Below are positions 36,753 to 63,494 of a stretch of 64,000 nucleotides of DNA, piece by piece. Each line of letters begins with the position of its first letter. The stretch's first letter is position 1. The DNA lies in the NCBI RefSeq assembly GCF_000165735.1, contig NZ_GL538184.1, forward strand, positions 1-64,000, given 5' to 3'. This stretch comes from Megasphaera micronuciformis F0359 (GTDB lineage Bacteria; Bacillota; Negativicutes; Veillonellales; Megasphaeraceae). The position numbers and the translations under genes are program-made. The notes beneath the pieces were generated by a model, which worked only from the letters and a program-made list of their open reading frames with translations, was not told the DNA's origin and did not search any database.

Positions 36753-38321
36753 TTATTTTCCCATATGCTTCATGACTTCCTGCATTTCTTCAGGACTCAT
36801 AGATTGCATGGCTTCCGTCATCATCTTCATGGCTTCAGGTGTCGGCCCGGCTCCCGATGACTTGGCTTTTTTCATGGCGGCAATAATCTTTTCTACCTTT
36901 TCACTGACAGCTTTCGTTTCCGCACCGTCTTGTGCCGCCACTCCTTGAAGTGACATGCTTTCAACTCCTTTAACCAAATACTGAATGCATTCGACTGTTG
37001 TCTGGGCCAAATTCACTTGCCAAAACTCTCCGGCTGTCGTCAGCTTATAAATCACTCCGTTATTTTCTACAAGTCCCTGCTTTTCCCATAAATCATAGAG
37101 CCACTTTAAGTCGGATAAGCGAGGATCTTCTCCGACCAGCAGGTCTACATTAAAGTAGCCTTGTTCAATTTGTGCTAATGTTTTATTTACCAAAGGCTGA
37201 ATATCCGATTCTTTTACTAAAGCCATAAAGGGTTTCTTTTTTTCCTCTACAGCCGTTGCATACGTGTCGAGAGTTCTATAGAGCATGGTCGAATAACCGT
37301 CCACACGACCGCCGGCCCCGCTACCGAAAGGAAACATGGTAACTCCCGTCTTAGCCAATGTATTATACAAACTCCGTTCCCTGTTGGTCTTAGCCCAATG
37401 GGCGGCACTGAGCCGACGACAATTGTGTTTCATCAAATATTCTCGCCCAAACTCGAACATGCGAGCCTGTTCTTTCGTCGTAGCCGCCGGGTCCAAAGCG
37501 CCTGCCTGAATACGCTTAGCCAAATCGCTGTTATCGTATACATTGAGCTGATATAAGTCAGCCCCGTCAGCAGCTGACGTCATAAGACATTCCAAGTCAT
37601 CACGCCATACGTCCATGGACTGAGACGGCAACCCGTAAATCAAGTCGATAATGACAACGCACTGATTGTAAGCCTGAAGTTCTTCCAGTCGTCGCAAAAC
37701 AGTGTCTTTATCATCCAGACGTCCCACTTGACGTCGAACTTTCGTATTAAAAGACTGGACGCCTAAGGACATGCGATTCACACCTTCAGCCATCCACACA
37801 TCCATCTTTTCAGGAACCAAATCATGAATTCGACCTTCTAACGTTAATTCATAATCATTGGCTAAAGGCAAGCAGGTACGAATAGCCCGTAAAAGACGTT
37901 CTGCATTTTGTGTCGACAGTGAAGTCGGTGTCCCGCCGCCGATAAAAACGGAATGAATTAACCCGTTTTTTAATCGCGGCTCATGGCATTCTCTTTCCAA
38001 ATCCTTTATCAAAGAGTCCACGTATGCATCTTCAACAGCCTGATCCGTTCCATTTTGGAAAAAAGCACAATACAGGCACTTGGTCTTGCAAAAAGGTATA
38101 TGAATATATGCCGTCTGTGTCGGTTTACCCGTAGGCTTTTTACTCATTAATCCCTGCCAAATTTTCTGAGCCTCGCGAGGATTTACGGGCGTTCCGTCAA
38201 TACCGGCATGGACAACCCGCTTGCGCGGAAATCCCTCTGTTAAAGGATCCGCTCCGATTCTTCCGAATTGAAATTCCCGCTGTTCTGAAGGCAGACTCTC
38301 ATACAGTTCTTTCAGCCCCAT
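36753..38321 (-). CDS. hutW: HutW/ChuW-family radical SAM enzyme for anaerobic heme degradation
   Basis: A 522-aa radical SAM protein. The 4Fe-4S/SAM motif CKTKCLYC is at residues 78-85, preceded by YIHIPF and followed by FIGGGTPTSL, LGVQSFN and DLIYGLPSQ, as in the HemN/HutW family. The N-terminal extension (QFGRIGADPLTEGFPRKR) and the HRxH-free body match ChuW/HutW, which opens the heme ring anaerobically to a linear tetrapyrrole and frees iron. The C-terminal ~50 residues form a Met-rich helical tail. ATG at 38319-38321 follows the flavodoxin stop by one base. HemW or HemN are alternatives, but the flavodoxin partner and the heme/iron neighbourhood favour HutW. Confidence 0.85.
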   Translation of the reverse strand: MGLKELYESLPSEQREFQFGRIGADPLTEGFPRKRVVHAGIDGTPVNPREAQKIWQGLMSKKPTGKPTQTAYIHIPFCKTKCLYCAFFQNGTDQAVEDAYVDSLIKDLERECHEPRLKNGLIHSVFIGGGTPTSLSTQNAERLLRAIRTCLPLANDYELTLEGRIHDLVPEKMDVWMAEGVNRMSLGVQSFNTKVRRQVGRLDDKDTVLRRLEELQAYNQCVVIIDLIYGLPSQSMDVWRDDLECLMTSAADGADLYQLNVYDNSDLAKRIQAGALDPAATTKEQARMFEFGREYLMKHNCRRLSAAHWAKTNRERSLYNTLAKTGVTMFPFGSGAGGRVDGYSTMLYRTLDTYATAVEEKKKPFMALVKESDIQPLVNKTLAQIEQGYFNVDLLVGEDPRLSDLKWLYDLWEKQGLVENNGVIYKLTTAGEFWQVNLAQTTVECIQYLVKGVESMSLQGVAAQDGAETKAVSEKVEKIIAAMKKAKSSGAGPTPEAMKMMTEAMQSMSPEEMQEVMKHMGK

Positions 38322-38322
38322 A

Positions 38323-38844
38323 CTATGCCTCACTCACTTTTTTCGTTACGCGTACTGCAAAAGCACGTGCCGCCGCCAAGTCCGCTTCATCCGGATGCTT
38401 AGCCGCTTCAGCATGGCGAGCTTCGCTTTCAGGATTTTTTCCGTGCGGCGAGTCTGCCGGAAACCGCTTGTACATCATTTCAATTAACTTCGGATCCACG
38501 GCTCCTTGACAAATAAAGGAGTCGACTACTTCCGTATGTGCCGGCACAAGTTCCGTAGCGGAAACCAAGCACTTATGGGCATGTTCCGATGCCGGATTGG
38601 CTCCGAGAGTTGCAAAAACAGCCACCTTCTTTGCCGTTAAAGTTTCCAAAACCTTCTTTGCTTCTTCGTCAGCCGTTCCCTTATCAACCCAAAAGCCTGC
38701 AAAAACACAGTCATAGGAACTTAAGTCTGTAGGTGCTTCAGCCGCTGCAACGCACGGCGTGCCTTCCGGCAAGGCGGAAACAATCGCTTCGGCAACCTTT
38801 TTTGTATTACCTGTCCGAGACGAGTATACTACCATGTATTTCAT
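38323..38844 (-). CDS. Flavodoxin-family protein, probable electron donor to HutW
   Basis: A 173-aa flavodoxin-like protein. The FMN phosphate loop is VVYSSRTGNTKKVAEAI at the N-terminus; CVFAGFWVDKGTAD and FATLGANP supply the ring-binding loops. A C-terminal helical tail (ESEARHAEAAKHPDE) resembles that of flavodoxins in tetrapyrrole-reduction loci such as BilS, noted from memory. The ATG at 38842-38844 has AGGAGGA. It is the first gene of the flavodoxin-hutW operon; radical SAM heme-opening enzymes need a low-potential reductant, which this protein could supply. Confidence 0.88.
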   Translation of the reverse strand: MKYMVVYSSRTGNTKKVAEAIVSALPEGTPCVAAAEAPTDLSSYDCVFAGFWVDKGTADEEAKKVLETLTAKKVAVFATLGANPASEHAHKCLVSATELVPAHTEVVDSFICQGAVDPKLIEMMYKRFPADSPHGKNPESEARHAEAAKHPDEADLAAARAFAVRVTKKVSEA

Positions 38845-38905: not shown

Positions 38906-38967
38906 ATCATACCAAAAGCACTCCGACTCTTCTACTCCGTTCAGTCCGTCAATAATCCGTTCGGACA
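38906..38967 (-). promoter_or_regulatory. Promoter and 39-bp direct-repeat operator of flavodoxin-hutW (copy A)
   Basis: The element at 38929-38967 reads on the minus strand TGTC, then half-site AACGGATTATT, then half-site AACGGAGTAGAA, with starts 20 bp apart. Its last six bases (TAGAAG) take the -35 position: a 17-bp spacer leads to TATGAT at 38906-38911. The same element with the same geometry occurs at 58456-58494 and 63456-63494. A poor -35 under a direct-repeat site is typical of activation by AraC-family proteins. Confidence 0.8.
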
Positions 38968-39045: not shown

Positions 39046-39984
39046 CTAATAACTTCTGCGAAATTCGCCGGGAAGCTGTCCCGTTATTTTATGAAAGGCT
39101 ACGGCAAACTTACTGCTGTTTTCGTAGCCCACACAGTTGGCAATTTCCATAATACTGTCATCCGTTTGCAGTAACATCTGCTTGGCCTTTACCATACGGT
39201 ACTCTTTAATATATTGCGACACGGTACAACCGTATACGCCTTTAAAACATTTTTTCAGCGTTGTCGGTGCAATTCCGTGTTCCTTAGCCAGTTGCTCTAT
39301 GGTAAACTTTTTCATCATATTTTCCGTAATTTTCTTACGAATAGCTTTCACAAGGTTTACCTGTTGCAACGTAAAGGATTCTCTTTTTTCTGCAGGCACC
39401 TTTTTTATAGTGCTTAAAAGAAGCAATATTTCCAAAACTTTAATGCGAAAATACTGGTCTTTAATAGACTCGGGAACATGATAAAGTTCATAAAATAAAT
39501 GCTTCAGGCTCGCATCTTCTCTCATAATCATGCCGAAATCGCGCCGGTCACAAAGACGCTGGCTCATGGCTTCCAAGTCGATAACCCCTACACCCAACTG
39601 GCGATCCATCGTTTCCTGAGCCTTAGGTAAATTAAGCAACAACGTGACTCCGTGATAATGAGCCAAAGGAAACACCGACGTATGACAATAAGCACTGCAG
39701 CGCCTCCAACCGACGGACATATCCCCTTCTCCCATGTACAAGTATTCTCCGTTTTTGAAGTTACATTCAATACGTCCCGTCTCGCAATGATTAATAGCAA
39801 ATACATCGGGCATAGGCTTGGCTTCACACGAAAGTTCCGGCCGGTGAATATCCATGTACATAATCATAATGCCGGGATATACACTGTACCCGGTCATCAT
39901 GGCCTGCCCTTTACTATCTTTAATTTCGTACACACTCCCGTTCTGTACCGTTCCCGAGGCGTACATTTCATGAGCGTTTTTCAT
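39046..39984 (-). CDS. AraC-family transcriptional regulator (PchR/YbtA-like)
   Basis: A 312-aa regulator. The N-terminal domain (~1-200) is the ligand-sensing part and contains a His/Cys-rich stretch (RRCSAYCHTS, then HYHGV) that could sense heme or metal. The C-terminal ~100 residues are an AraC-type DNA-binding domain with two helix-turn-helix units: IEQLAKEHGIAPTTLKKCFKG and IMEIANCVGYENSSKFAVAFHK. The ATG at 39982-39984 has AAAGGA at good distance; an upstream ATG at 40039-40041 has a poorer site. Position between the hutW operon and the ABC importer, plus a promoter element typical of AraC sites beside it, suggests it controls heme/iron uptake. Confidence 0.92.
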   Translation of the reverse strand: MKNAHEMYASGTVQNGSVYEIKDSKGQAMMTGYSVYPGIMIMYMDIHRPELSCEAKPMPDVFAINHCETGRIECNFKNGEYLYMGEGDMSVGWRRCSAYCHTSVFPLAHYHGVTLLLNLPKAQETMDRQLGVGVIDLEAMSQRLCDRRDFGMIMREDASLKHLFYELYHVPESIKDQYFRIKVLEILLLLSTIKKVPAEKRESFTLQQVNLVKAIRKKITENMMKKFTIEQLAKEHGIAPTTLKKCFKGVYGCTVSQYIKEYRMVKAKQMLLQTDDSIMEIANCVGYENSSKFAVAFHKITGQLPGEFRRSY

Positions 39985-40047
39985 ATGTATGTCCTTTCCG
40001 CATACAGCTAACTTATTTCTGTTAAATTGCGTTTCTTTCATATCTCA

Positions 40048-41862: not shown

Positions 41863-43968
41863 TTACCACTTCCATTCGGCACCGACACGCCACATACGTC
41901 CGTCAATATAAATAGCATCGATTTTCTTATTGAAAATATTGTCGACGCCGCCATATACGGAAAAGGCTTCGTTCAACTTTTTATTGAACGAGAAGTTCAC
42001 CGTATTATAGGTGTACATCTTGCCGTCGTAGTGATAGTCGGATGCGAATTGATCCCATAAAACGGCACTGAATCCGTGAATCTTATCCTTATCGTCATAA
42101 ATGAGTTGGAAAGTCGTCGTATTCTTAGCCCGATTATCTAACTGCGTGTGTTTCTTCTTATCAATGGCATCTAACCAGTTATGCGTAATCTTAGTAATCC
42201 AACGCTTGCCGATACGACGGCCCACTTCAGCTTCTATACCGTTAATCTGCGCATCATCGACGTTCACATAACGATAGTCTCTCGGTCCTGTAGGGCCTGT
42301 AAATCGTTCCGTCGTAATCAAATTGGTTACTTTATTGTTAAAGTAAGTCACCTTGCCGAACCAAGCACCCTTGTCCGCTTCTACGGAGAAGTCGAAGCTC
42401 TTCGACTTTTCCGGATCCAATTCGGGATTGCCGTAAATATTAACCGTCATAGGTCCCATGGCACGGTGCATGCGCATGTATAACTCCGTAATAGTCGGAG
42501 CCTTATAGCCTAAGCCGTAATTAGCTTTAAAGCGCCAGAAGTTATTAAAGTTATAGGTAAGGCCCACCTTCGGTGTCACTTCCGAACCGAATTGACTGCT
42601 GTGTTCAAAACGTAAGGACGGAATAATATAGAGCTTATCGTTAACCTGCCACTGGTCTTGTACATAGGCAGCATAAGAATCGACCTTATGTGACTTCATA
42701 ATCTTGTTCATACCCGACAGCGAGTCACCTAACCGGGTGCCGGCATACTTCACTCGACGGAATTCACCGCCATAAGTCAGATTATGCGAGTCGCCGATAT
42801 AGGTCGTATTCTGTGCCTCTGTTACCCACGTGCTGTATTTAGCTCTATCCATATCTTCTTTCGGATATTGTAAGTCGTAGTTAGCCGGTGTGCCGGCAGG
42901 GGTCATAATCGGGCCGCTGGGTAAAATGCGTTCATTCAATAAATGGGAATACTTTTCCAAATCATTATAATAAGTTCTAAACTTATAGTCGTTTTTCTTC
43001 GTCTTTCCCGAATATTCTACGCTAAAACCTCGCGATTCATTGTCATACCATTCTTTTTTGTTTTTATTCGTCAAGCGCCAAGCAACGGGAGGCATAGAAC
43101 CCGTAAAAATCCGCGATTTCGTATCGGGAAAATCGGAACGGAAGTTTTCCTTACCGTAATCTATATCAAAACGAAGCTTGTTTTTATTAGCATTTTCAAA
43201 ATCATATTGAGATGCCAAGTGAATAAGCTTTCTCATGCCGTACATAGACCGCGTGTATCCGTCCGTAATGGAGCTGACAGCATGCGTCATCGGGTTGATC
43301 GCTTCCGAGTGTCCGAAGCGGTTGAAGGGGCGGCGACGTTCCAAGCGGGCATCAATACTCGTTGACCACCGGCCGTGTTTACCGAAGTCGAAATTACCGT
43401 ATTCCGACGTGCTGAGAGTTCCCGTCGATACGCCGAAGGTACCTCCCGCCTTTTTAGGCACGCGCGTAATAACATTAATAACGCCGCCCATGGCATCAGA
43501 CCCGTACAGAGAGCTGGACGGCCCGCGAACAATTTCAATACGGTCAATATCACTGACATTGAGTCTTTGCAATGCATAGACGTTCGTCGTATTGGATGCG
43601 TCTTCACCGGCAATACGCTTGCCGTCAACAAGAATCAGGGTGTGATTTGTACTCATACCGCGGAGCTGCACAGAGTTTCCCGTCATACCCGCTTTCGATA
43701 AATTCAAGTTATCGGCCAAAGCCAGTGCGGACAATACATCATCAGCACCCATGCGCTGAATATCTTTAGCCGTAATGACTTCCGCCGACTGAGGTTCCGT
43801 TTTTAAAAGTTCTTGCGTTCGCGATGCCGTAACGAGGATTTCCCCGCTATATACTCCGTGTCCCTTTGTATCTTCCGTTGTCGCACCGGTCGTGTCGGCG
43901 GCAATTGCCGTACCGGCAACCGTAGCTGCCAAAGCTGCTAAAACAAGTAATCGAATCGGTTGTTTCAT
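41863..43968 (-). CDS. TonB-dependent outer-membrane receptor (heme/siderophore type)
   Basis: A 701-aa receptor: signal peptide (~1-23, ending AIAADT), TonB-box-like GEILVTASR near residue 42, plug domain (~50-165) with LRGMSTNHTLILVDG, RIEIVRGPSSSLYGSDAMGGVINVI, and a 22-strand-type barrel to the C-terminal Trp (VGAEWKW). Length is usual for the family. AGGAGG precedes the ATG 13 bp after the ATPase gene. The FecBCD importer encoded upstream in the same operon should carry the substrate onward; heme or an iron-siderophore complex is expected. Confidence 0.94.
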   Translation of the reverse strand: MKQPIRLLVLAALAATVAGTAIAADTTGATTEDTKGHGVYSGEILVTASRTQELLKTEPQSAEVITAKDIQRMGADDVLSALALADNLNLSKAGMTGNSVQLRGMSTNHTLILVDGKRIAGEDASNTTNVYALQRLNVSDIDRIEIVRGPSSSLYGSDAMGGVINVITRVPKKAGGTFGVSTGTLSTSEYGNFDFGKHGRWSTSIDARLERRRPFNRFGHSEAINPMTHAVSSITDGYTRSMYGMRKLIHLASQYDFENANKNKLRFDIDYGKENFRSDFPDTKSRIFTGSMPPVAWRLTNKNKKEWYDNESRGFSVEYSGKTKKNDYKFRTYYNDLEKYSHLLNERILPSGPIMTPAGTPANYDLQYPKEDMDRAKYSTWVTEAQNTTYIGDSHNLTYGGEFRRVKYAGTRLGDSLSGMNKIMKSHKVDSYAAYVQDQWQVNDKLYIIPSLRFEHSSQFGSEVTPKVGLTYNFNNFWRFKANYGLGYKAPTITELYMRMHRAMGPMTVNIYGNPELDPEKSKSFDFSVEADKGAWFGKVTYFNNKVTNLITTERFTGPTGPRDYRYVNVDDAQINGIEAEVGRRIGKRWITKITHNWLDAIDKKKHTQLDNRAKNTTTFQLIYDDKDKIHGFSAVLWDQFASDYHYDGKMYTYNTVNFSFNKKLNEAFSVYGGVDNIFNKKIDAIYIDGRMWRVGAEWKW

Positions 43969-52124: not shown

Positions 52125-53105
52125 TTATCCCTTATAATCGGCAGCGTATCTTGCCATAGCACCGCCCAGGTCACCGATGAAGTAACCGAAATGCTGCTGG
52201 CACGCCCAGTTAACAGCAACACTGTCGGCCATTTGTTCCGTCGACGGCGTAGAATGCATAGTGAGTTCATTCCACTGTTTCGTCGATTTATCGTAAATAT
52301 ACGCTTTGCTCTTATTCGTATCGACGCGGTACTTCACTTTTTGGCCTTCGCCCGTTAAGATATCCGATTCCATGATGGTTTCGTGTTTCCGTGCCGTAAA
52401 AGTCCAAACGCCGTCTTTATCCGTATCTGTGGATATAGACTTCATATCCAAATAAGTTTCATAATCGCCTTGTGCGTAAATCGGTCTATATTGTTCGTTG
52501 TAGACCAAAGAGCTGTTGAAATACGTCGTACGACGATTTTCCGCCCCTTCTTTATAGCCGAACCACTGAGCTTTATTATCCCAGAAAAGCTTATACCAGT
52601 GGTACTGATCACTCAGATTATTAAAATGATATACGCCCAAGTCACCGTAATGCAAGGTAATCCCTTCATGTACGGCTTCACCGGCTACGGGCGAATAATA
52701 GTTCCGAGCATCCGTATATGTCTGCCAAGATTTTGTGCGTTCGTCATAGCCCATAAGGTAGGCAAATTCCGAATCCTTCGACTGAACGATATAGAAGTTA
52801 CGACCGTCATCGTTATTTACAATTTGATGTATTTCCATTGTATAGTAACGACCGAGAGACGGTACTTCTTTCGTATAAATAACCTTACTATGTTGTTTAA
52901 CAATAATCTGAGCTACGCCGTTTTCGCGAGCGTAAGAAATATGAAATTTGTTGCCGTGATCTTTAAACGAATCATCATAGTTGTTTCGTTCCGGCCCGAA
53001 GACAACGGAATGAACCGGCGAAAACGAAGCTAACGCCGAAAAAGATGTACACAAGGTGACGGCGAGAGCACTGACAAGTAAGCGAACAGATTTTTTTGCA
53101 TTCAT
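52125..53105 (-). CDS. Secreted protein of unknown function
   Basis: A 326-aa protein with a clear signal peptide (KKSVRLLVSALAVTLCTS, cleavage near SALASF). The mature part is polar and rich in Tyr, Asp, Asn and Trp, with beta-strand-like segments and no membrane helix or recognised domain. The ATG at 53103-53105 has AAAGGAG; the longer open frame crosses the promoter region. Possible promoter TTGACC...TAATTT at 53164-53192. It lies downstream of the giant receptor genes but behind their terminator. A periplasmic or surface role is all that can be said. Confidence 0.75.
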   Translation of the reverse strand: MNAKKSVRLLVSALAVTLCTSFSALASFSPVHSVVFGPERNNYDDSFKDHGNKFHISYARENGVAQIIVKQHSKVIYTKEVPSLGRYYTMEIHQIVNNDDGRNFYIVQSKDSEFAYLMGYDERTKSWQTYTDARNYYSPVAGEAVHEGITLHYGDLGVYHFNNLSDQYHWYKLFWDNKAQWFGYKEGAENRRTTYFNSSLVYNEQYRPIYAQGDYETYLDMKSISTDTDKDGVWTFTARKHETIMESDILTGEGQKVKYRVDTNKSKAYIYDKSTKQWNELTMHSTPSTEQMADSVAVNWACQQHFGYFIGDLGGAMARYAADYKG

Positions 53106-53288
53106 AAACGACACTCCTTTATTCTGGTTGAGTTCTCGAAAAATTGATAACTCTTTTACATAAAAATTATCACATTTTGTTAAACCGGTCAATTGAAGAT
53201 GATTTTTGTGTTTTCTTTGTTAATAAAGTGTTACTTTTCCTTAAAGTAATTCGCAGTATTCACTGCAATCCACGCTCTCATCATCCCT

Positions 53289-53347: not shown

Positions 53348-56300
53348 CTAGAATTTATACGTAGCCTGTACACGAGTATAGTTTCCCAACGTAAAGGTTT
53401 CCGACCCGTACAAAGTATCTCTTCGATTTATCCCCTTAGCATCAAAAGTGTAAAAAGCTTCCAACAGGAAGTTCTTAGTCGGTACGTAAGCCGTCCCGAG
53501 CGTAAAGCTGCGAATGCCGTCCAAGTATCTGTCCGGCACACCGGTTGCTCCCGTTCCTCCGAAGAAGGAACCGTGTTCAAAATACTTATAATCCGCAAAG
53601 GCGCTCCAACTTCCGGGTACCTTCATATCCGCTTTGCCCACGTCAAACCGAAGTGTCCAGAAATGAGGTGTACCGCCGTCGTGACGACCCGTAATTTCAA
53701 AGTCGGACGTTCCCGCCGTATGCTCATAAGCCGTATGCCCGTTCAAGTATCTCCCCAAGTCGGACCGGTTCTGACCGTAGTCAACAGATACGGCAGCCTT
53801 CTTACCCAGACGATAAGTGGCACCTAAGCCTATAATATTAGCCGGATTAGTAAAAGTCCGTTCCTTAGTCGCACGCCCTTCGGCATAATGAGCCTTATAC
53901 GAATTTCCGCCGACAGACCGCAAGTACCAAGCCGTCAGTCCAAGTTTGTCGCCTACTACCTGCTTAGCCTGTACAAATACGGCTCGATCAATAGGCGGTA
54001 CATAATCTCGCTGTAACACAATGCCTTGAGAAGGAATAATGGTTCCCGTGTACTTGCCCAGTTCTTCACGCGGCAAAGTGCTGTAACCGTCCGTCTGTCT
54101 CAGTACATTCGCAATTTCATTAAAACAATCGGCTAACAAGCTGGGGTAGTAATCACTACCTTTAACCGAAACGGTGCCTCTTGTACCCGATTCAGGCAAT
54201 TCCACGCTGTTCAGCTTATAGATTTTTTCTTTTAGTCCGTCCAACTGAGTCGTATCGACAGTTACTGTATACGGCTGATTTGTAAAAGTAAGATCTCCCA
54301 AGTCTTTGGCACGTTTTTCATAGGCTTCCTTGATTTGATCCGCATGTGCATCATACCACTTATCAATATAAACCTTGCCGTTTTCATCAAAGAGCGACGG
54401 ATCGGCCAAAGAAATTTCAAAAAGCGGGTCCTTTGTATTCAGTCCTGTTACACCGGGTGCAATATTTTGGTTAAATGAGTTATCTTCGTCATACCACTGA
54501 CCGTCATCTTCATCATACGTTCTTGTATGATATGAATAAGTCGCCTGTATTTCAGGCATACGCAAGGAGACAGTCTTTTTTGCTATGGCGGATCCGTACG
54601 CTTTTATAGCAATATCCCGCATTCTGCGTACAACTTCAAACTGCCGTTCTCTAAGCGGCGCCGTCTGCACCTCATACTGAGCCTGAGCAGCTGTAACTGC
54701 CGCTTGCAACTGTGCCAACTGTTGCCGTAAGGGGGCAAGAACACTTTCCGGTTCACCGTCCAGGTACTGCTTCGACCAAATATCGCTTTCCAAATTCTCC
54801 GCCGCCGTTTTTGCGTCATCTACAGCCCGTGCCAGGGCAGCTTCCTGATCTCTTAGTGCTTTTAATTGCTGATAGAAGTTGACCGTATTCGGAGCATTAT
54901 CTACTACCAATTCCTTGCGCCCGCCATCCGAGTCAAGCGTCGTTCCTACAAATTCATCTACCGTAGGAGGTCTTAAGAAACCCGTATAAACAGCATGGGT
55001 ATAAGCTGAATCACTAACACCCGTAGAATGACTGAAATCACCGAAGCCGACTTTAACTTGAGACTTCGCTCCCGTCCATACAGCCCGGCCTCCGTCAAAC
55101 TCTTTGCCGAACCAATAAGAGGTGACCCCGAAACTTTCATGTAATCGACCTAAGCTGAAGTCCCATTTGCCGCGACGGTTTGTCAAATCGGCTTCTTCAA
55201 GACGCTGATGAGAAAACCCTTGTGAGCCTTCCGTAACATGCCCCGTATCTACTCCGACTTGTCCCGAAGCACTGCCCACGAGGCGTATATTCGTGTTCTT
55301 GTCTACACGAACATTAACACCCAAACGTACTCTGTTTTCAAATCCATGCTCCTTTTCATCTCTTAAATTGCGCGCCGCATCGATATCAATGGAGCTGGTC
55401 GCCGTCACACGAGCTGTCGGTCTCTGAGAGCCCAAATGACTGTCCCAACGGGCTCTGTAATCACCGAAAACTTCCACTCCTTTTTCAGCCGCGTCATCAA
55501 AAGGCCGTGACAGGAAATCTTCCCAACTCAAAGGTTCTACGATTGTATCATTCGGTATAGCTCCGTTCTTGGATTCCGCATCCGATCCGATTTTGAAGTT
55601 CGCTCCGAAGCGATAGACACGTGCCGAAAAAGCTCGATCATCGTCACGATGATTGAAAAGGTTGTTAATCCCGAAGTACACAACTGAATCTTTGTTGATT
55701 TTCTTCTGAATCATTAAGTTCCACATGCCGAAAGTTTTACGCTGATACATATCGGCCGTGCGTGTAGTGTTAAAGTTATAATGAATGACGGACTTGTCCG
55801 GATTCGTCGGATCGATATAGGATACCATGTAGTTACCGCCACCCTTAAGGGAGTTACTGTCCAACATGTTAATATAATAATCTCCCCATAGGCTGCCGCT
55901 CCAACCGCTCTTTTCATCATTGTAATCTATACCTATATCGATCTTATGTTGCGGTTTATCCAAAAGCTGACGCGGCATATCCTTATCGCTCTTATTTACG
56001 GCATGCAGGTACGTATAGCCGAAACGAGCCTTCCAATGTTTGGACAAGGTTTGTTTTAATTCCCATTCAAGGCCTGTAATTTCCGCTTTCCCGATATTTC
56101 GGAAGCTGTAAATCAGGTCGGGAGCATGCGAAAACTTTGAAGCTCCATAAGGGGTACTTTCATCATATTGAGGGTAAAAATCCATTAAATACCCCGTATT
56201 GTAAATGGACATATAGTCTTTTATACGGTTGTGGAATAAGGTCACCTTCGAATAGGTGTTCTTACTTTCCCCTTCCAACGAAAGATCGAAGTTTACCGCT

Positions 56301-58366
56301 TTTTCAGGCTGTAAACGCGGATTTCCCACCCAATACCATCCGAGACGAGCTTCACCGCCTCCAATGGTGGCATTGACAATATTAGGTCCGTACATTTCCC
56401 AGTTATAATACAGCTCTCCCATGCCCGGTTCGGTATAGCTCGTCCCTATATTGGCCTTAAACCGACGATGCGTATTACCCTTTACGTTATGGGTCATACC
56501 CAGATTAAAGGTCATATTGGACCCGAACAGTTCACTGTGATCCAATCTCAAGGCCGGCATAAGGATTGTATCTTTATTAAGTTGCCACATATCCTGCAAA
56601 TAAAAATGTTGCTTTTTAATTTTTGCCTGACCCATGGTCACCTGATTGATACGTTTATTATATTCTTCCTTAAAATAAGCTCCGTTAAGTTTTAACTTTG
56701 TCGAGTCAAAGGACGGAACGGCCCCGTAATAAAAACTGGGCAAGTAAGCATCATACAGCGCCGGATAATAGTTGCCGTGCTCATCTCGTCGACCTTCTTT
56801 ATTGTTGTGATAGTCTTCAATAAACTCCCTATTATTTTCTAATAAGGTTCTGGCAAATTGCTTATACCGTTCGTAGGCCTCCGGATTTCGTTTTTGTAAA
56901 GTTTTTTCCGTCACCGGGCCGTCGACGAGCCCCATGACCGCCGCCGGATCCTGTCCCGAATCGGGATCTAAATACTGCAGATATTCTTCATACGTAAACT
57001 GCGGCAAGGTAGCCGGATCGTTTTTATCTCCGTTATACCATTCCTTTTCCTTATCCCACTGCTCAACTCCGGCACTGTTTTTAGCAAAGGAGTGCCGATA
57101 CACGGTAGATGACGGGATACCTCGTTTAACAGCCAAGCTCTTATCGTAGTCCCATGGATCTATGTTACGCACATACGTATGCGGAGCATTTTTCAGTCGA
57201 CTGCCTTCCCCTTCTTCATTGGCATAACCGGCGCCGTACGACAAAAGATGCTTATCATTTATCTGTGTATCTGCCGACACGTCGAAACTCCATTGCCGAT
57301 GATCCACATTGTCCACATAGTTCAGAGTATTTTTGCCTTCATACGTACTGTTGCCGTAGTCACTCGTCAGGGTAATGTCATTTTCTTTGACGCGGGCATA
57401 TGTAAGTTCCGCCTGCCAATTGCTCTTACCCGACTTAGCTTTGTACGTCAGGTTCATATTGTTTCGATCCAAGTCGCGTTTGTAATGAACTTGCGGCTCT
57501 ACGTAAGAGTTGCTTCTCTTAACATACCGCTCCAGATTTTCCTTATACCGGTCTGCGCGAACGGATACGGATCGATTCTTATCAATGTCATAGATGCCGA
57601 AAACACCGACATTGGAATTAGTCCCGTAAAAGCGCAACGAATTTTTCAAAAAACCGTGGTCTTCATCAGATGCCAAAAAGCTGTTCTTTCTGGCACGGCT
57701 GGCATAGACGGGCATAATGTCCTGTTTACTGCCGTATACGTCAAATCGGAACTTACCCACCTGTCCCGAATCGGCCCGTAAAAAATAGTTGGAATACGGT
57801 GAAATATCACCGTCTCCTTTTTCTCGCCTTCCTTCCAAATTAAAACGAAGCCCCGACTTTTTACTCGGTTTATTCGTAATGACATTAATGACACCGCCGA
57901 TAGCATCAGCCCCATACTTGGCACTGGCTGCACCTTGAACGATTTCGATATGGTCCACGTTTTCCGTTCCCAGTCGTTGTAATTCGTCCCCGGCACCGGA
58001 GTACTTGGCCAAGTCCCCCATAACGGGTTTCCCGTCTACAAGAATCAGTGTATGTCGAGGCTCGGCCCCGCGAATAGAGACGCCCACACGCCCCATAGAG
58101 TCGACCGTACGGGTGACCCCCGTCTCATTAAAGACAATATCTTCAACGGATTTTGCCTGTTTCTTCTCAATTTCCGCCTTTGTAATTATAGTCTTTTGTT
58201 GAGACTCAAACTTAGCTTCTTCTTCAGCTCGCGTAGCTTGAACAATAATATCTCTCGTAGTAACTCGTTCTGCGGCACTCACCTCATACCCGGGCACCGC
58301 CAGCCATGAAACCAAGGCACACAGCAGTAACGTATACCGTCTCGTGTACCTTAAAGGATACCTCAT
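53348..58366 (-). CDS. Giant TonB-dependent receptor fused to a second porin-like beta-barrel (copy 1)
   Basis: A 1672-aa outer-membrane protein. Signal peptide (~1-31); TonB-box-like TRDIIVQATR (~37-46); plug (~50-170) with IRGAEPRHTLILVDG and VQGAASAKYGADAIGGVINVI; receptor barrel (~180-925) ending VYRFGANFKIG, a normal TBDR terminus. After a ~35-residue linker, residues ~960-1672 form a second strand-rich domain beginning GVEVFGDYRARW, with alternating aromatic/polar segments, and ending RVQATYKF, a terminal-Phe signature of outer-membrane barrels. A helical heptad-rich insert lies at ~1166-1245. GGGGAGG precedes the ATG. Ordinary TBDRs have 600-1000 aa. Regulation by the shared 39-bp element suggests a role in heme acquisition; the ligand is not known. 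Confidence 0.88.
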   Translation of the reverse strand: MRYPLRYTRRYTLLLCALVSWLAVPGYEVSAAERVTTRDIIVQATRAEEEAKFESQQKTIITKAEIEKKQAKSVEDIVFNETGVTRTVDSMGRVGVSIRGAEPRHTLILVDGKPVMGDLAKYSGAGDELQRLGTENVDHIEIVQGAASAKYGADAIGGVINVITNKPSKKSGLRFNLEGRREKGDGDISPYSNYFLRADSGQVGKFRFDVYGSKQDIMPVYASRARKNSFLASDEDHGFLKNSLRFYGTNSNVGVFGIYDIDKNRSVSVRADRYKENLERYVKRSNSYVEPQVHYKRDLDRNNMNLTYKAKSGKSNWQAELTYARVKENDITLTSDYGNSTYEGKNTLNYVDNVDHRQWSFDVSADTQINDKHLLSYGAGYANEEGEGSRLKNAPHTYVRNIDPWDYDKSLAVKRGIPSSTVYRHSFAKNSAGVEQWDKEKEWYNGDKNDPATLPQFTYEEYLQYLDPDSGQDPAAVMGLVDGPVTEKTLQKRNPEAYERYKQFARTLLENNREFIEDYHNNKEGRRDEHGNYYPALYDAYLPSFYYGAVPSFDSTKLKLNGAYFKEEYNKRINQVTMGQAKIKKQHFYLQDMWQLNKDTILMPALRLDHSELFGSNMTFNLGMTHNVKGNTHRRFKANIGTSYTEPGMGELYYNWEMYGPNIVNATIGGGEARLGWYWVGNPRLQPEKAVNFDLSLEGESKNTYSKVTLFHNRIKDYMSIYNTGYLMDFYPQYDESTPYGASKFSHAPDLIYSFRNIGKAEITGLEWELKQTLSKHWKARFGYTYLHAVNKSDKDMPRQLLDKPQHKIDIGIDYNDEKSGWSGSLWGDYYINMLDSNSLKGGGNYMVSYIDPTNPDKSVIHYNFNTTRTADMYQRKTFGMWNLMIQKKINKDSVVYFGINNLFNHRDDDRAFSARVYRFGANFKIGSDAESKNGAIPNDTIVEPLSWEDFLSRPFDDAAEKGVEVFGDYRARWDSHLGSQRPTARVTATSSIDIDAARNLRDEKEHGFENRVRLGVNVRVDKNTNIRLVGSASGQVGVDTGHVTEGSQGFSHQRLEEADLTNRRGKWDFSLGRLHESFGVTSYWFGKEFDGGRAVWTGAKSQVKVGFGDFSHSTGVSDSAYTHAVYTGFLRPPTVDEFVGTTLDSDGGRKELVVDNAPNTVNFYQQLKALRDQEAALARAVDDAKTAAENLESDIWSKQYLDGEPESVLAPLRQQLAQLQAAVTAAQAQYEVQTAPLRERQFEVVRRMRDIAIKAYGSAIAKKTVSLRMPEIQATYSYHTRTYDEDDGQWYDEDNSFNQNIAPGVTGLNTKDPLFEISLADPSLFDENGKVYIDKWYDAHADQIKEAYEKRAKDLGDLTFTNQPYTVTVDTTQLDGLKEKIYKLNSVELPESGTRGTVSVKGSDYYPSLLADCFNEIANVLRQTDGYSTLPREELGKYTGTIIPSQGIVLQRDYVPPIDRAVFVQAKQVVGDKLGLTAWYLRSVGGNSYKAHYAEGRATKERTFTNPANIIGLGATYRLGKKAAVSVDYGQNRSDLGRYLNGHTAYEHTAGTSDFEITGRHDGGTPHFWTLRFDVGKADMKVPGSWSAFADYKYFEHGSFFGGTGATGVPDRYLDGIRSFTLGTAYVPTKNFLLEAFYTFDAKGINRRDTLYGSETFTLGNYTRVQATYKF

Positions 58367-58432: not shown

Positions 58433-58494
58433 ATGATACTAGGGTATGGATACGCCTTCTACTCCGTTCAGTTCATAAATAATCCGTTTCGACA
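58433..58494 (-). promoter_or_regulatory. Promoter and 39-bp direct-repeat operator of giant receptor 1 (copy B)
   Basis: Element at 58456-58494, 34 of 39 bases identical to copy A: half-sites AACGGATTATT and AACGGAGTAGAA 20 bp apart. Its end TAGAAG serves as -35, with a 17-bp spacer to TATCAT at 58433-58438. It lies 89 bp before the start codon. Confidence 0.8.
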
Positions 58495-58600: not shown

Positions 58601-61600
58601 CTAGAATTTATACGTTGCCTGTATACGAGTGTAATTGCCGAGTCGGAAGTTTTCCGGCCCGTACAATGTATCTCGTTTGCCCGTTCCTTTGGCATCAAAG
58701 GTGTAGAAAGCTTCAATAAGTAAATCTTTACGAGGCACATATCCGGCACCGAAAGTAAAGCTGCGAATACCGTCCATGTAACGATCCGGTACTCCTTCCG
58801 TTCCGTTACCGCCGAAGAAGGAGCCGTGTTCAAAATACTTGTAATCCGCGAAGGCATTCCAACTTCCGGGCACCTTGGTATCGGCCTTGCCCATATCGAA
58901 ACGAACAGTCCAGAAATGAGGGGTTCCGCCTGCCTGATATCCGGTGATATTGAATACCGGCGAAGCATAAGCATGTTCGTATGTCGTATGACCGTTCAGG
59001 AATCGCCCGAACTTGGTTCGATTCTGCCCGTAATCGAAGGAAAGAGATACGTCTTTGCCGATTTGCCAAGCTGCGCCTATGCCGAAAACATTGGCCAATG
59101 TCGAAAATTCATGCTTTTCATTGACCGTTCCCGTCGCCCTGTCAGTCTTATACGAATCGCCGAAGGAGCGTAAGTACCAAGCTGATACACCGACAGTCGG
59201 CGTAATTTCATGTTTATACTGTATGAAAGCCGCTCGCTTCAACGCCGGGACATCATCTTTTACGAGTACGCCCGTAAAGGCGGGGATGATTTCGCCGATT
59301 GTATTCTTAAAGGCTTCACGCGGCAACTGACTGCCGCCGTCCGTTTCTTGAATTCGTTTCGCTACGGCGCTGAAATATTCATTAATGACATAGGGCATGC
59401 CCTGACTTGCAAAGAGGCTATCCGTCGACGACGGTGATACGAAATCGTTTCTGTAAATTTGTTCCTTCAATGCATCCATATCGACGGTTACATCTTCCGC
59501 CTCAATACCGTCTTCAAACGAAAGAGCCGCAAACCCTTCTTCTACGTAGTTACTTTCAATTTCACTCTTATGAGCATCCCACCAGCTGTCGAAGAAGGAT
59601 CGTCCTTGTAAGGGACTGCCGTCATTATAAGGAATGTAAAATTTCTTAGCACCCGAATAATACATAGACGGCGCATAAGTTAAGGTCTTCGTATGTTCGT
59701 CACCGTTATCGTCCGTATACGTAACCGTCACGCCGTCGGGCTGACGAATTTCAAACTTTGCTTCCGACAATACGGCTTCATCTAAATAATTACCGTACGT
59801 CGCCTTAGCAATATCGTACATATGGCGCATAATGCCCAACAATTCTTCCGTCGACGCTCCGGACGCCTTGGCACGTTCCAATTGTTGATAGAAATTAATC
59901 GTATCGGGAGCATTTGCAACCTGTTTTTCACCGTTAAAACTGATACCCACGTCATTAGAAATAAGGCCGATGAATTCATCAATCGTCGGTACCCGCATAT
60001 AGTTTTCTCTTACGACATGAGTATACGGGGAATCACTGATGCCCGTACTGTTCTTAAAACTGCCGAAGCCTAATCGCAACTGAGATTTTCCATCCGTTCT
60101 GACAGCGCGAGCTCCGTCGTATTCCTTGCCGAACCAGTACCCGGTTACACCCATCCGTTCATTCAGACGACCCAGTGAATAGTCCCATTTTGCGGCATGT
60201 CGGGTGACATCAAAGGTATCGAGGCGAGCATGATTGAAGCCTTTGCTTTCAGACATATCGTACGACGTATCCACACCCGTCATACCGGATGCGCTGGCAA
60301 CGGCTTTGACGTTGGTCTTATCATCGATTCTCGCATCCACTCCGACACGAATACGTTGTTCAAAACCGTGTTCATCGTTATCACGCAAATTCTTTTCGGC
60401 ACTGCCGACACGAGAGTCAAAAGTTGTTCTGGCTGCCGGCCGTTCCGATCCGTCATGGGCATTCCACCGAGCTCTGTAATCACCTATGAAATCGACACCC
60501 TTTTCACGCGTCGTATCAAAGGGAGCCTGTATAAAGTTCGATAACTTCACAGATTCACTTGTGACCGCTTTCTTTCCGTCAGTTTCTACAGCTGTTGCAC
60601 TGTTTCCAGCCGCATGATCCGCCTTGCCCGTATCCGTCCCGGCCCGGTCTTCACCGTCGGCCTTGTAGTGCTGACCGAATTTCAAATTTACTCCGAAACG
60701 ATACACACGGTCCTGTAAAGCTCTGTCATCATCGCGATGAGCAAAAATATTATCAATGCCGAAGTACATCATGGCATCATTTCTGAACTTCTTTTGAACC
60801 ATTAAATTCCAAATGCCGTAAGTCTTCTTTTGATACGTCTGTTTTCCCCGTTCGGCAAAGTGGTAGTTAATAACCGAGTGCTGACTGTCGGGAGCAATAT
60901 AAGACTCCATGTAGTTGCCGTTATTGGCAATAGAGTTGCTGTCCAGCATATTGATATAGTAGTCGGCCCAAAGACTTCCGCTCCAACCGCTTTTTTCATT
61001 TTCATAATTGATGCCGACATCGATTTTGTGAACAGGTTTATCCAAGAGCTGCCGCGGCATGTTGGGGTCTGTCTTATTGATTGCATGGAGCCACGTATAT
61101 CCCAATTTAGCATTCCAGTGCTTATTAAATCGCTGCTTTACTTCAAATTCCAACCCCGTTATTTCAGCCTTGCCGATATTCTTAAAGCTGTAAATCATAT
61201 CGGGAGCATAGAGGAATTTGGAAGCCCCCCATAAGGATTCAGTTGTAAGTTCCGGGTGGAAATCCATTAAGGCGCCTGTAAAGTAAATGGACATATAGTC
61301 CTTTATACGGTTATGAAAGAGATTGAAACGCGTATTCGTCTTGGCATTTTCCGTTTCATATCCGATGTCGAAGTTAAGAGACTTTTCCGGCTTTAAATCA
61401 GGGTTGCCGATAAAGTACCAACCCAACCGAGCCGTATCGGAGCCCACCGGACTGCTGCTGTACATTTCCCAATTATAGTACAGTTCACCCATGCCCGGTT
61501 CCGTGTAACCCGTACCGATATTGGCCTTAAAACGACGGTGTACATTGCCGCCTACATTTTTTGTAAGCCCCAGGTTAGCCGTTAAGTGGGCCCCGAAGAG

Positions 61601-63382
61601 GTCGCTCTTATCAAGACGCAAAGACGGAGTAACAATGGTATCTTTGTCCACCTGCCACATATCCTGTAAGACCAGGTACTGTTTATTAATGGATGCCTTA
61701 CCTACATAGACCATGTTGTTGCGATCCTTAAAGGCTTCTTTAAACCGCTTGCCGTTAAATGTAACGCCCTGGATATTGGCTTGAGAATTGTAATAGCTTT
61801 CAATAGCCAACATATTATGGTAAAAGGGAGGATAAGGGGCAAACTTAGATGCATTTTCCGCCAGAATTTTGGCGGCAAAAGCATCGGCCTTTGCCTTGAC
61901 GGCCGCCGGTAAGTTATCATAAGAAACCAGTGAAGCACCGTTAGGGAAGTATTGTTTATAGTCCGTATACGTAAAATCGGCTTTTTGACTTGTCGGGTCA
62001 TTGCGATCATAGTTATACCATTCTGCCGCATTGTTCCAGTAGGGAATACCGTTTTCGTCACGCAATATTTCATAAGCATGGACGTTAGAAGCTACTTCCC
62101 CGCTTTGCCCCGAAACGAGAGGACTTTCTTTGGAGATGACGAAGAGGCTCTTATCATAATCCCACGGATCAATCCGCTTCAAGGTTACATGTGGAGCGCT
62201 CTTCAAGCGACTTCCCGATCCGTCTTCTTTCGAAAAGCCGAAGCCGTAGGAAAGAAGATGCTTATCGTTGACCTGTGTCGACGCATTGGCCGATATGCTC
62301 AATTGTCGATGATCCACGTCATCTACATACTCAAGCTGGTTCTTCCCTTCATAGGACGACTTGCCGTAATAGCTGCTGACCGTAACGTCATCTTCTCTCG
62401 TGCGCGAGTAATTGGCGTCAACGGACCAATTGGTTTTGCCACCGTTATTTCCCGTCCATGTAAAACCGTACGTATCTCTATCCATATTCCGCTTAAAATG
62501 TTGCTGCGGTTCCATCATGCTGTCACTGTGTTTCATATAACGGTCGAGGTTTTCATTGTATCTGTCGGCACGAAAATCGAGAGAGTTTTTGTCATCGAAT
62601 TTATACGTCCCCGTAAAACCTGTATCGGAAGCCGTTCCGTAAAAGCGGAGGGAATTCTTCTCGAAGTTGGTAACCTTGGTCTGCATAGCCGAGCTGGATC
62701 GTCCTCGTGCAGCATAAACCGGCATAATATCTCGTTTACTTCCGTAAAGGCCGAGTCGTAATTTACCCATTTCTCCCGAGTCGGCACGGAAGAAGACATT
62801 TTGGTACGGGAATATGTCACCCTCTCCGCGAACTCGCCGACCTTCGGCATTAATCTGAATCGTCGGCTTCTTTTTCGCCTTTTTGGTCACTACATTGATG
62901 ACCCCGCCGATGGCATCGGCACCGTATTTAGCACTGGCAGCCCCTTGAATGACTTCAATGTGGTCTACATTTTCAGTCCCCAGCCGTGTCACTTCATCAC
63001 TGGCCCCGTAATACTTGGCCAAGTCACCCATAACCCGTTGCCCGTCTACCAGGATGAGCGTATGTCGAGGTTCGGCACCGCGAATGGAAACACCCACACG
63101 CCCCATAGCGTCAACCGTTCGCGAAACTCCCGTTTCTTGGAAGATGACATCTTCAACAGACTTTGCCTGCTTTTTTTCAATTTCTTTGCTTGTTATAATC
63201 GACGTCTGCTGGCTTTCATACTTAGCTTCTTCTTCCGCTCTTGTAGCCTGTACGATAATATCTCGAGTAACAACACGACCGTTTCCGTCTGCATATACGG
63301 GCATAGCCAACCATGCTGCAATCGCCAAAGATAACATCATATATGATTGTATGCGGCGGGTGCGCCCGGTTACCTTTTTCAT
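58601..63382 (-). CDS. Giant TonB-dependent receptor fused to a second porin-like beta-barrel (copy 2)
   Basis: A 1593-aa paralogue of the preceding giant protein along its whole length. Signal peptide (~1-31), TonB-box-like TRDIIVQATR, plug with IRGAEPRHTLILVDG and IQGAASAKYGADAIGGVINV, receptor barrel ending VYRFGVNLKFG (~890-900), a longer polar linker (~900-960, rich in Asp, Ala and Lys), then a porin-like domain (~960-1593) from FIGDYRARW to RIQATYKF. It lacks the coiled-coil insert of copy 1. The ATG at 63380-63382 has GAGG 10 bases upstream; a TTG three codons earlier is too close to that site. It has its own promoter and terminator. Confidence 0.88.
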   Translation of the reverse strand: MKKVTGRTRRIQSYMMLSLAIAAWLAMPVYADGNGRVVTRDIIVQATRAEEEAKYESQQTSIITSKEIEKKQAKSVEDVIFQETGVSRTVDAMGRVGVSIRGAEPRHTLILVDGQRVMGDLAKYYGASDEVTRLGTENVDHIEVIQGAASAKYGADAIGGVINVVTKKAKKKPTIQINAEGRRVRGEGDIFPYQNVFFRADSGEMGKLRLGLYGSKRDIMPVYAARGRSSSAMQTKVTNFEKNSLRFYGTASDTGFTGTYKFDDKNSLDFRADRYNENLDRYMKHSDSMMEPQQHFKRNMDRDTYGFTWTGNNGGKTNWSVDANYSRTREDDVTVSSYYGKSSYEGKNQLEYVDDVDHRQLSISANASTQVNDKHLLSYGFGFSKEDGSGSRLKSAPHVTLKRIDPWDYDKSLFVISKESPLVSGQSGEVASNVHAYEILRDENGIPYWNNAAEWYNYDRNDPTSQKADFTYTDYKQYFPNGASLVSYDNLPAAVKAKADAFAAKILAENASKFAPYPPFYHNMLAIESYYNSQANIQGVTFNGKRFKEAFKDRNNMVYVGKASINKQYLVLQDMWQVDKDTIVTPSLRLDKSDLFGAHLTANLGLTKNVGGNVHRRFKANIGTGYTEPGMGELYYNWEMYSSSPVGSDTARLGWYFIGNPDLKPEKSLNFDIGYETENAKTNTRFNLFHNRIKDYMSIYFTGALMDFHPELTTESLWGASKFLYAPDMIYSFKNIGKAEITGLEFEVKQRFNKHWNAKLGYTWLHAINKTDPNMPRQLLDKPVHKIDVGINYENEKSGWSGSLWADYYINMLDSNSIANNGNYMESYIAPDSQHSVINYHFAERGKQTYQKKTYGIWNLMVQKKFRNDAMMYFGIDNIFAHRDDDRALQDRVYRFGVNLKFGQHYKADGEDRAGTDTGKADHAAGNSATAVETDGKKAVTSESVKLSNFIQAPFDTTREKGVDFIGDYRARWNAHDGSERPAARTTFDSRVGSAEKNLRDNDEHGFEQRIRVGVDARIDDKTNVKAVASASGMTGVDTSYDMSESKGFNHARLDTFDVTRHAAKWDYSLGRLNERMGVTGYWFGKEYDGARAVRTDGKSQLRLGFGSFKNSTGISDSPYTHVVRENYMRVPTIDEFIGLISNDVGISFNGEKQVANAPDTINFYQQLERAKASGASTEELLGIMRHMYDIAKATYGNYLDEAVLSEAKFEIRQPDGVTVTYTDDNGDEHTKTLTYAPSMYYSGAKKFYIPYNDGSPLQGRSFFDSWWDAHKSEIESNYVEEGFAALSFEDGIEAEDVTVDMDALKEQIYRNDFVSPSSTDSLFASQGMPYVINEYFSAVAKRIQETDGGSQLPREAFKNTIGEIIPAFTGVLVKDDVPALKRAAFIQYKHEITPTVGVSAWYLRSFGDSYKTDRATGTVNEKHEFSTLANVFGIGAAWQIGKDVSLSFDYGQNRTKFGRFLNGHTTYEHAYASPVFNITGYQAGGTPHFWTVRFDMGKADTKVPGSWNAFADYKYFEHGSFFGGNGTEGVPDRYMDGIRSFTFGAGYVPRKDLLIEAFYTFDAKGTGKRDTLYGPENFRLGNYTRIQATYKF

Positions 63383-63431: not shown

Positions 63432-63494
63432 ATTTTATCATCTAAACTCTTGACGATTCTACTCCGTTCGTACCAAAAATAATCCGAACAGACA
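63432..63494 (-). promoter_or_regulatory. Promoter and 39-bp direct-repeat operator of giant receptor 2 (copy C)
   Basis: Element at 63456-63494, 29 of 39 bases identical to copy A. Invariant parts are TGTC, CGGATTATT and GAACGGAGTAGAA; the 20-bp spacing is kept. TAGAAT serves as -35, with an 18-bp spacer to TAAAAT at 63432-63437. It lies 73 bp before the start codon. Confidence 0.78.

Follow-up and report, generated by a model that had tools for sequence, protein, structure and literature searches.

A single predicted polypeptide of Megasphaera micronuciformis F0359 is likely to hold two outer-membrane barrels, a gated TonB-dependent receptor followed by a porin. The same receptor–porin fusion is found as a family in Veillonella, Megasphaera and their relatives, apparently serving haem or iron uptake, a role that is inferred from the regulon to which the genes seem to belong. 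The anatomy of the chain, its conservation and the presence of a shared upstream element are shown by the computation; the fuller interpretation, i.e., that a receptor of a haem/iron regulon is joined covalently to an OmpM-type porin bearing a domain on the cell surface, is likely, with its ligand, trimer formation, conduction and cleavage remaining untested. The support differs between the two halves, the first barrel resting on its sequence family and the second on a structural model and homology.

The gene, here called fusion A, lies in the window (the whole stretch of 64,000 nucleotides that was analysed) as a 1672-residue frame at 53348-58366 that starts with ATG and has 0 internal stops on the minus strand, the plus strand across the same interval having many (Table 1). 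The original prediction had described, in this interval, a complete receptor continued by a strand-rich segment that ends in Phe, and had concluded that the chain forms two barrels, one gated and one porin-like. The position of the frame held, its strand being minus; the complete receptor and the extra segment held on the strength of the Pfam Plug match and the barrel profile end; and the two barrels held, based on a 16-stranded model, similarity to OmpM1 and a polar linker.

Table 1. Coordinates of the features discussed, in positions of the window unless a contig is named
Feature	Positions	Strand	Basis
Fusion A: TonB-dependent receptor, linker and OmpM-type porin barrel	53348..58366	-	frame, Pfam, AF2, structure comparison
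Signal peptide, residues 1-32	58271..58366	-	cut site by eye; hydrophobic N-terminus
Plug domain, residues 56-159	57890..58201	-	Pfam PF07715, E 1.3e-20
Receptor beta-barrel, ~residues 160-926, end VYRFGANFKIG	55589..57889	-	PF00593; CirA top PDB match
Polar linker, ~residues 927-962	55481..55588	-	length and sequence variable across family
Porin strands 1-7, residues 963-1111	55034..55480	-	AF2 model; hhalign to OmpM, E 1.3e-8
Loop-4 region, largely helical insert (predicted), residues 1112-1458	53993..55033	-	AF2; extracellular by topology
Porin strands 8-16, residues 1459-1672, end TRVQATYKF	53351..53992	-	AF2; hhalign to OmpM, E 2e-11; Porin_5
Fusion B, tandem paralogue with the same plan	58601..63382	-	listed frame to 63391; ATG at 63382 chosen
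Operator-like repeat upstream of fusion A	58457..58486	-	
Operator-like repeat upstream of fusion B	63457..63486	-	
Operator-like repeat, 1 mismatch, upstream of flavodoxin/HutW operon	38930..38959	-	
Operator-like repeat, fourth genome site, ahead of ExbB-ExbD-TonB operon	contig C10 66561-66589		
ChuW/HutW anaerobic haem-degradation radical SAM methyltransferase	36753..38333	-	TIGR04107, 484.4 bits, cut-off 400
Flavodoxin (Flavodoxin_3), BilS-related	38323..38844	-	BilS score 125.2, below cut-off 155
AraC-family regulator beside flavodoxin/HutW repeat site	39046..40041	-	PF12833, 80.5 bits
Ordinary single-barrel TonB-dependent receptor, 701 aa (comparison case)	41863..43968	-	

The receptor half was recognised by sequence profiles. 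Behind a hydrophobic N-terminus (10-residue hydropathy 2.58) comes the Plug domain, immediately preceded by RDIIVQA, which we take to be a TonB-box-like stretch, and then a match to TonB_dep_Rec_b-barrel at residues 507-903 (E 1.2e-30) that covers profile positions 117-436 of 436. Because this match reaches the last position of the profile, the receptor is complete ahead of the extra segment, and beyond its end (~926) the frame runs for ~745 residues more, the terminal one being Phe. Among solved structures CirA is nearest in sequence, followed by PfeA/FepA and BtuB. AlphaFold2 (AF2) gave no usable model of residues 32-960 (pLDDT 48.2), so that the strand number of the receptor rests on family membership. 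None of the ligand-specific NCBIfam cut-offs was passed by the fusion receptors, and the score for a TIGR01785-type haem receptor, 98.5 bits for A and 108.3 for B, was below the cut-off of 316.85. The energising system is present: a single operon of the same contig (L108) encodes members of the ExbB, ExbD and TonB_C families, and a further ExbB gene lies inside the window.

The second barrel was modelled with AF2 using residues 945-1672 and 8 sequences as input. The five models disagree (mean pLDDT 79.5, 73.4, 71.5, 70.6 and 51.1), and in the best of them, with a pTM of 0.64, 16 membrane strands were counted, with long loops alternating with short turns in a porin-like manner. In segment numbering, strands 1-7 are predicted at residues 19-33, 63-76, 81-90, 109-121, 124-132, 145-154 and 158-167, strands 8-12 at 515-527, 531-540, 566-576, 580-589 and 624-633, and strands 13-16 at 643-652, 674-686, 689-700 and 719-727; shorter or extra strands, e.g., 179-188 and 500-509, were counted as loop hairpins and not as barrel strands. 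A second barrel of ~710 residues, as first proposed, is upheld only in part, the barrel proper taking up ~365 residues in this reading and the other 347 being found in loop 4, between strands 7 and 8. The loop-4 insert, with predicted helices at segment residues 220-258, 263-318, 379-416 and 465-482, is likely to be extracellular by topology, largely helical and probably soluble, and it is the least conserved part across the fusion family. Loop 3, the usual constriction, has only ~12 residues in the model. An outcome that would have refuted the two barrels, namely that the segment forms soluble domains or part of the first barrel, is contradicted by the AF2 model and by the OmpM homology at both ends; soluble domains are, to be sure, what the helical loop-4 part probably provides.

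Comparison of the model with solved structures by Foldseek placed OmpM1 of Veillonella parvula at all of ranks 1-4 (E 6e-14 to 9.5e-14). The superposition as a whole was poor (rmsd 14-18, TM 0.33-0.35 by model length and 0.72-0.78 by target length) because of the loop-4 insert. In the VIA comparison with 8bym (OmpM1), 287 of 321 residues were aligned with a Z of 26.8, an rmsd of 2.6 A and 19% identity; the next matches were OmpU (Z 22.0) and OmpF-type porins (~21). With hhalign, against a reference profile of 11 SLH-OmpM sequences, the C-terminal porin part matched at 97.3% (E 2e-11) and the N-terminal porin part at 95.6% (E 1.3e-8), the latter being seen only when this part was compared alone; the N-terminal part also matches an OmpM-sized frame of its own genome (E 3.6e-8). 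The Porin_5 profile passed its cut-off (22) in four of five isolated segments, the isolated segment of B (21.3) and full-length A (21.5) being below it. A profile search of PDB sequences with the porin segment gave nothing significant (best E 0.043), and for this reason the link to OmpM rests on the profile–profile and structure comparisons. No SLH match was found in fusion A or in its isolated segment; the OmpM of the same genome has one. Putative lumen-facing positions are less variable than outward ones in 14 of the 16 strands, and many lumen-facing residues are charged; the assignment was made by alternation and hydropathy without a control family, and hydrophobic outward positions are naturally more variable. 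The predicted model, together with profile homology, shows residues 963-1672 to be an OmpM-type, 16-stranded porin fold without the SLH stalk.

The end of the receptor and the start of the porin both face the periplasm, as inferred from their folds, which makes the linker between them periplasmic by topology. It measures 39-74 residues in all 38 selected family members and is polar and poorly conserved. The highest 10-residue hydropathy of the linkers is 1.97, that of the N-termini lies at 1.53-3.10 in 36 of the 38 members, and Met is absent from 22 linkers, those of A and B included, and present in 16. Internal starts in the linker are not strictly excluded, given that the hydropathy ranges overlap and that these 16 linkers hold a Met.

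Fusion B adjoins fusion A directly upstream with an identical receptor–porin plan, and in their own genome the porin segment of A matches itself, B and, weakly (E 1.8e-4 and 7.8e-4), two SLH-OmpM genes. At the family level all 17 genomes match the segment at E <= 0.001, many through a weak OmpM match alone; for the order and the class, homologues were counted with the C-terminal 745 residues at E <= 1e-15. By this measure the segment occurs in 27 of 61 genomes (3 of 13 genera) of the order and in 42 of 380 genomes (7 of 102 genera) of the class, mostly within frames of 1448-1847 residues, of which each of the 7 genera has at least one; outside the order the receptor halves were inferred from frame length and not read. 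Shorter frames with the segment also occur (e.g., of 1104, 1266, 1293 and 1347 residues, and many more in G001). When 398 genomes were drawn from the whole phylum, only 4 matched the N-terminal porin part; these belong without exception to the same class, and the match in G009 is weak and in an OmpM-sized frame. A search of the order with the Plug family gave matches in 60 of 61 genomes, the frames inspected being mainly of ~620-830 and ~1490-1730 residues, with some of 232-577 and also 899 and 914.

The 38 family sequences were chosen by length, plug motif and terminal residue, some being fetched twice and some lacking the N-terminus, and 30 were kept under 93% identity (1533-1847 residues, stop to stop or contig end). 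These 30 members align over their full length; compared with A, their receptors are 0.47-0.86 identical and their porin parts 0.33-0.66. The pairwise identities found for one half correlate with those for the other (Spearman 0.76-0.79 across three porin parts, uncorrected for shared descent), and a clade of A with orthologues from three genera is found in the trees of both halves (support 0.93 and 0.98). The two trees have 15 of 27 splits in common and show 4 pairs of conflicting splits with support above 0.9; the fusion therefore seems to have been mostly inherited as a unit, with some exchange.

Around the shorter frames, 18 regions were inspected, and in 14 of them fragments of a receptor precede the porin part, the gene being interrupted by frameshifts, deletions or contig ends. 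No intact stand-alone porin with the insert was found among these 18, other short-frame matches (e.g., in G191 and G001) lying outside the sample. Four regions of G001 (L086, L087, L088 and L090) hold a C-terminal half-barrel alone, which starts at about the end of the loop-4 insert and in L086 and L090 is near a contig end; these may be remnants or recombination cassettes. Frameshifted fusion copies were observed in G001, G003 and G008 (L007, L010, L091, L093-L098, L100), which may reflect gene decay, phase variation or sequencing errors, the genes being long and repeated. The final 330 nt of tandem Colibacter fusions (L006 4652-4981 and 9909-10238) are 96% identical, compared with 75% for the pair in the window, so that the barrel end may have undergone gene conversion recently. 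Downstream of A, a secreted protein of 326 residues without a Pfam match is encoded at 52128-53105. Of 380 genomes, 25 have a match to it, but a close one (79-81%) is limited to G003 and G008, where it again lies beside a fusion gene, and as a general fusion partner it was dropped, most genomes with the porin segment being without it.

The proposed role in haem or iron uptake comes from a 29-nt element shared by the upstream regions of A and B, CGGATTATTTN7GAACGGAGTAGAA, which, inferred from sequence alone, reads as an operator-like direct repeat whose halves are spaced by some two turns of the helix (20-21 nt). At <=3 mismatches there are 3 sites in the window, with 0.00 expected, and 4 in the genome, with 0 for a reversed control. 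The four sites precede fusion A, fusion B, the flavodoxin-HutW operon and an operon of ExbB, ExbD, TonB and a PNPOx-like protein, the last scoring just below its Pfam cut-off (27.9 vs 28.1). AraC-family regulators often bind direct repeats, and the AraC-family protein that adjoins one of the repeats is inferred to be the candidate regulator. Among 10 chosen genomes of relatives, a relaxed pattern of the repeat has 41 sites in 8 (control 0) and none in G052 (g12) or G191. A nine-base core is present upstream of 20 of 30 fusion genes, with 0.09 expected from composition-preserving shuffles, and was not found upstream of the other 10; some of the 30 are nearly identical genes from Veillonella, and among the 20 hits that of L079_+6290 is only 13 nt from the start codon, with its first half missing. 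Examination of 14 regions around repeat sites, mostly sites not ahead of fusions, revealed in 11 of them HutW-type, ExbB-ExbD-TonB, Fec-type importer, receptor, OmpM-like or fusion genes behind the site, and AraC genes beside it in four (L135, L137, L139, L143); 3 of the 14 were cut by a contig end and had no match to the reference genes. In a congener (G005; L140 1017-4999) the repeat site is followed by an OmpM-like gene, with an SLH domain by eye and 34.6% identity over 497 aligned positions to the OmpM of the present genome, that touches an unfused receptor gene (frame 805 aa). The order of these two genes is the reverse of that in the fusion, and their adjoining behind one repeat site supports the pairing of receptor and porin. 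It is possible, again inferred from sequence alone, that the repeat marks an AraC-type haem/iron regulon of Megasphaera and relatives.

A Fur box was tried as another regulatory signal and rejected, the window having ten hits with 3 mismatches and none better, vs 4.69 expected, and 3 of 100 shuffles reaching ten; two of the Fur-box-like hits are upstream of fusion B (63417, 63708) and one is at 53158. No riboswitch reached the gathering score near the fusions, and no cobalamin riboswitch did so in the window.

In the working that we propose, the receptor would take up a chelate in short supply, haem or iron derived from haem being the most likely, as inferred from the regulon only, and would be powered by the ExbB-ExbD-TonB operon that bears the same operator-like repeat. 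The porin barrel would anchor the chain in the membrane and probably hold it in trimers, an inference from OmpM1, which is a trimer (PMC10628300); it would display the loop-4 domain beside the mouth of the receptor as a putative capture or lid domain, and small solutes may also diffuse through it. According to PMC10628300, only Gracilicutes have the Lol route for outer-membrane lipoproteins, and a surface domain anchored by a barrel could for that reason replace a surface lipoprotein. If the chain has a ligand-capturing part, which the original prediction had considered for the second barrel, the loop-4 insert is a better place to look for it than the barrel. A bolder reading, offered only as a possibility, is an undescribed haem machine of the Negativicutes in which three receptor–porin chains are joined via an OmpM-like porin trimer, haem or haemoproteins are captured by the loop-4 domains and passed on to the TonB-gated receptor of each chain, so that bacteria lacking surface lipoproteins would have capture, active import and diffusion together in a single complex.

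Two alternatives survive best, each of them less likely than not. In the first, the second barrel is a closed anchor, plugged by the loop-4 insert, that holds the surface domain and oligomerises without forming a channel. The 347 residues in loop 4 and the short loop 3 speak for it; the lower variability and the charge of the lumen-facing positions, known without a control family, speak against it, and it is compatible with most of the main explanation. In the second, which we also consider less likely than not, the receptor imports a ligand other than haem, e.g., a catecholate siderophore or cobalamin. This would agree with CirA, PfeA/FepA and then BtuB being the closest solved receptors, and with one repeat site in a relative (L143) being ahead of a Fec-type importer operon. 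Against it, the repeat here marks the ChuW/HutW haem-degradation operon, and for cobalamin the absence of a riboswitch at gathering score in the window also counts; the two-barrel anatomy is compatible with either ligand. Unlikely, in our opinion, is a precursor that is cut in the periplasmic linker to give an ordinary receptor and a separate porin in equal amounts. The nature of the linker and the terminal strand that each barrel has of its own would allow it, and the unfused pair of the congener shows that separate chains exist, but no conserved cleavage motif was seen by eye among the aligned family linkers, and every one of the 7 genera has the segment within frames longer than 1400 aa. 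An artefact of annotation or assembly, i.e., two genes joined via a missed stop or sequencing error, might be suspected from the frameshifted and truncated copies of some relatives, but is all but excluded by the two intact tandem copies, the 30 distinct aligned members and the occurrence of the segment, mostly in frames of >1400 aa, across 42 of 380 genomes, which therefore indicates a conserved fusion.

The preferred reading, a receptor and a porin in one chain, raises the questions of how BAM folds two barrels with two terminal signals in one polypeptide, and why a gated importer needs an adjacent porin. The repeat defines a testable haem/iron regulon, and the bacteria that carry it live in and on people. 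For V. parvula, nine TonB systems, six of them in membrane fractions, and four OmpM have been described (PMC5491611); the words "fusion" and "hybrid" are absent from the main text of that paper, and its passages on the TonB systems and OmpM mention none. Genus g12 is taken here to be Veillonella, although none of its 14 genomes was recognised as V. parvula itself; all 14 have the porin-type barrel at least in part, G040 as a 103-aa frame match only. If this barrel conducts, outer-membrane permeability and tethering would be less tightly linked in g12 than has been proposed.

The claim that no described class has this plan was too strong, because outer-membrane chains with several barrels are a described class (Solan et al. 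2021, as cited in PMC8592465 and PMC11494523); Solan et al. reportedly found many such chains computationally, with eight-stranded barrels prevailing. The pairing of receptor and porin was not reported in the open-licence literature searched. GfcD/YjbH and the multi-barrel class likewise have more than one membrane barrel per chain, and in GfcD barrels of 12 and 13 strands are separated by a periplasmic domain, with a proposed role in polysaccharide export (PMC11494523), whereas in fusion A a TonB receptor precedes a 16-stranded porin. With the TonB-dependent receptors CirA, PfeA/FepA and BtuB the fusions have in common the signal peptide, plug and barrel, and ExbB-ExbD-TonB is found in the same genome, but those receptors stop after one barrel, where fusion A has ~745 residues beyond. 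OmpM1 of V. parvula (PDB 8bym, 8bys, 8byt; PMC10628300), from the same bacterial class, has the same 16-stranded fold, and its profiles match the fusion barrel at both barrel ends; in contrast to OmpM, the fusions lack the N-terminal SLH domain and stalk, the peptidoglycan tether, have a receptor instead, and add the large loop-4 insert. Pairs of the SusC-SusD type consist of a receptor and a partner that possibly captures or covers the ligand outside, SusD being a separate lipoprotein. In the fusions the proposed capture part would instead be a porin loop within the same chain, and the analogy is functional only.
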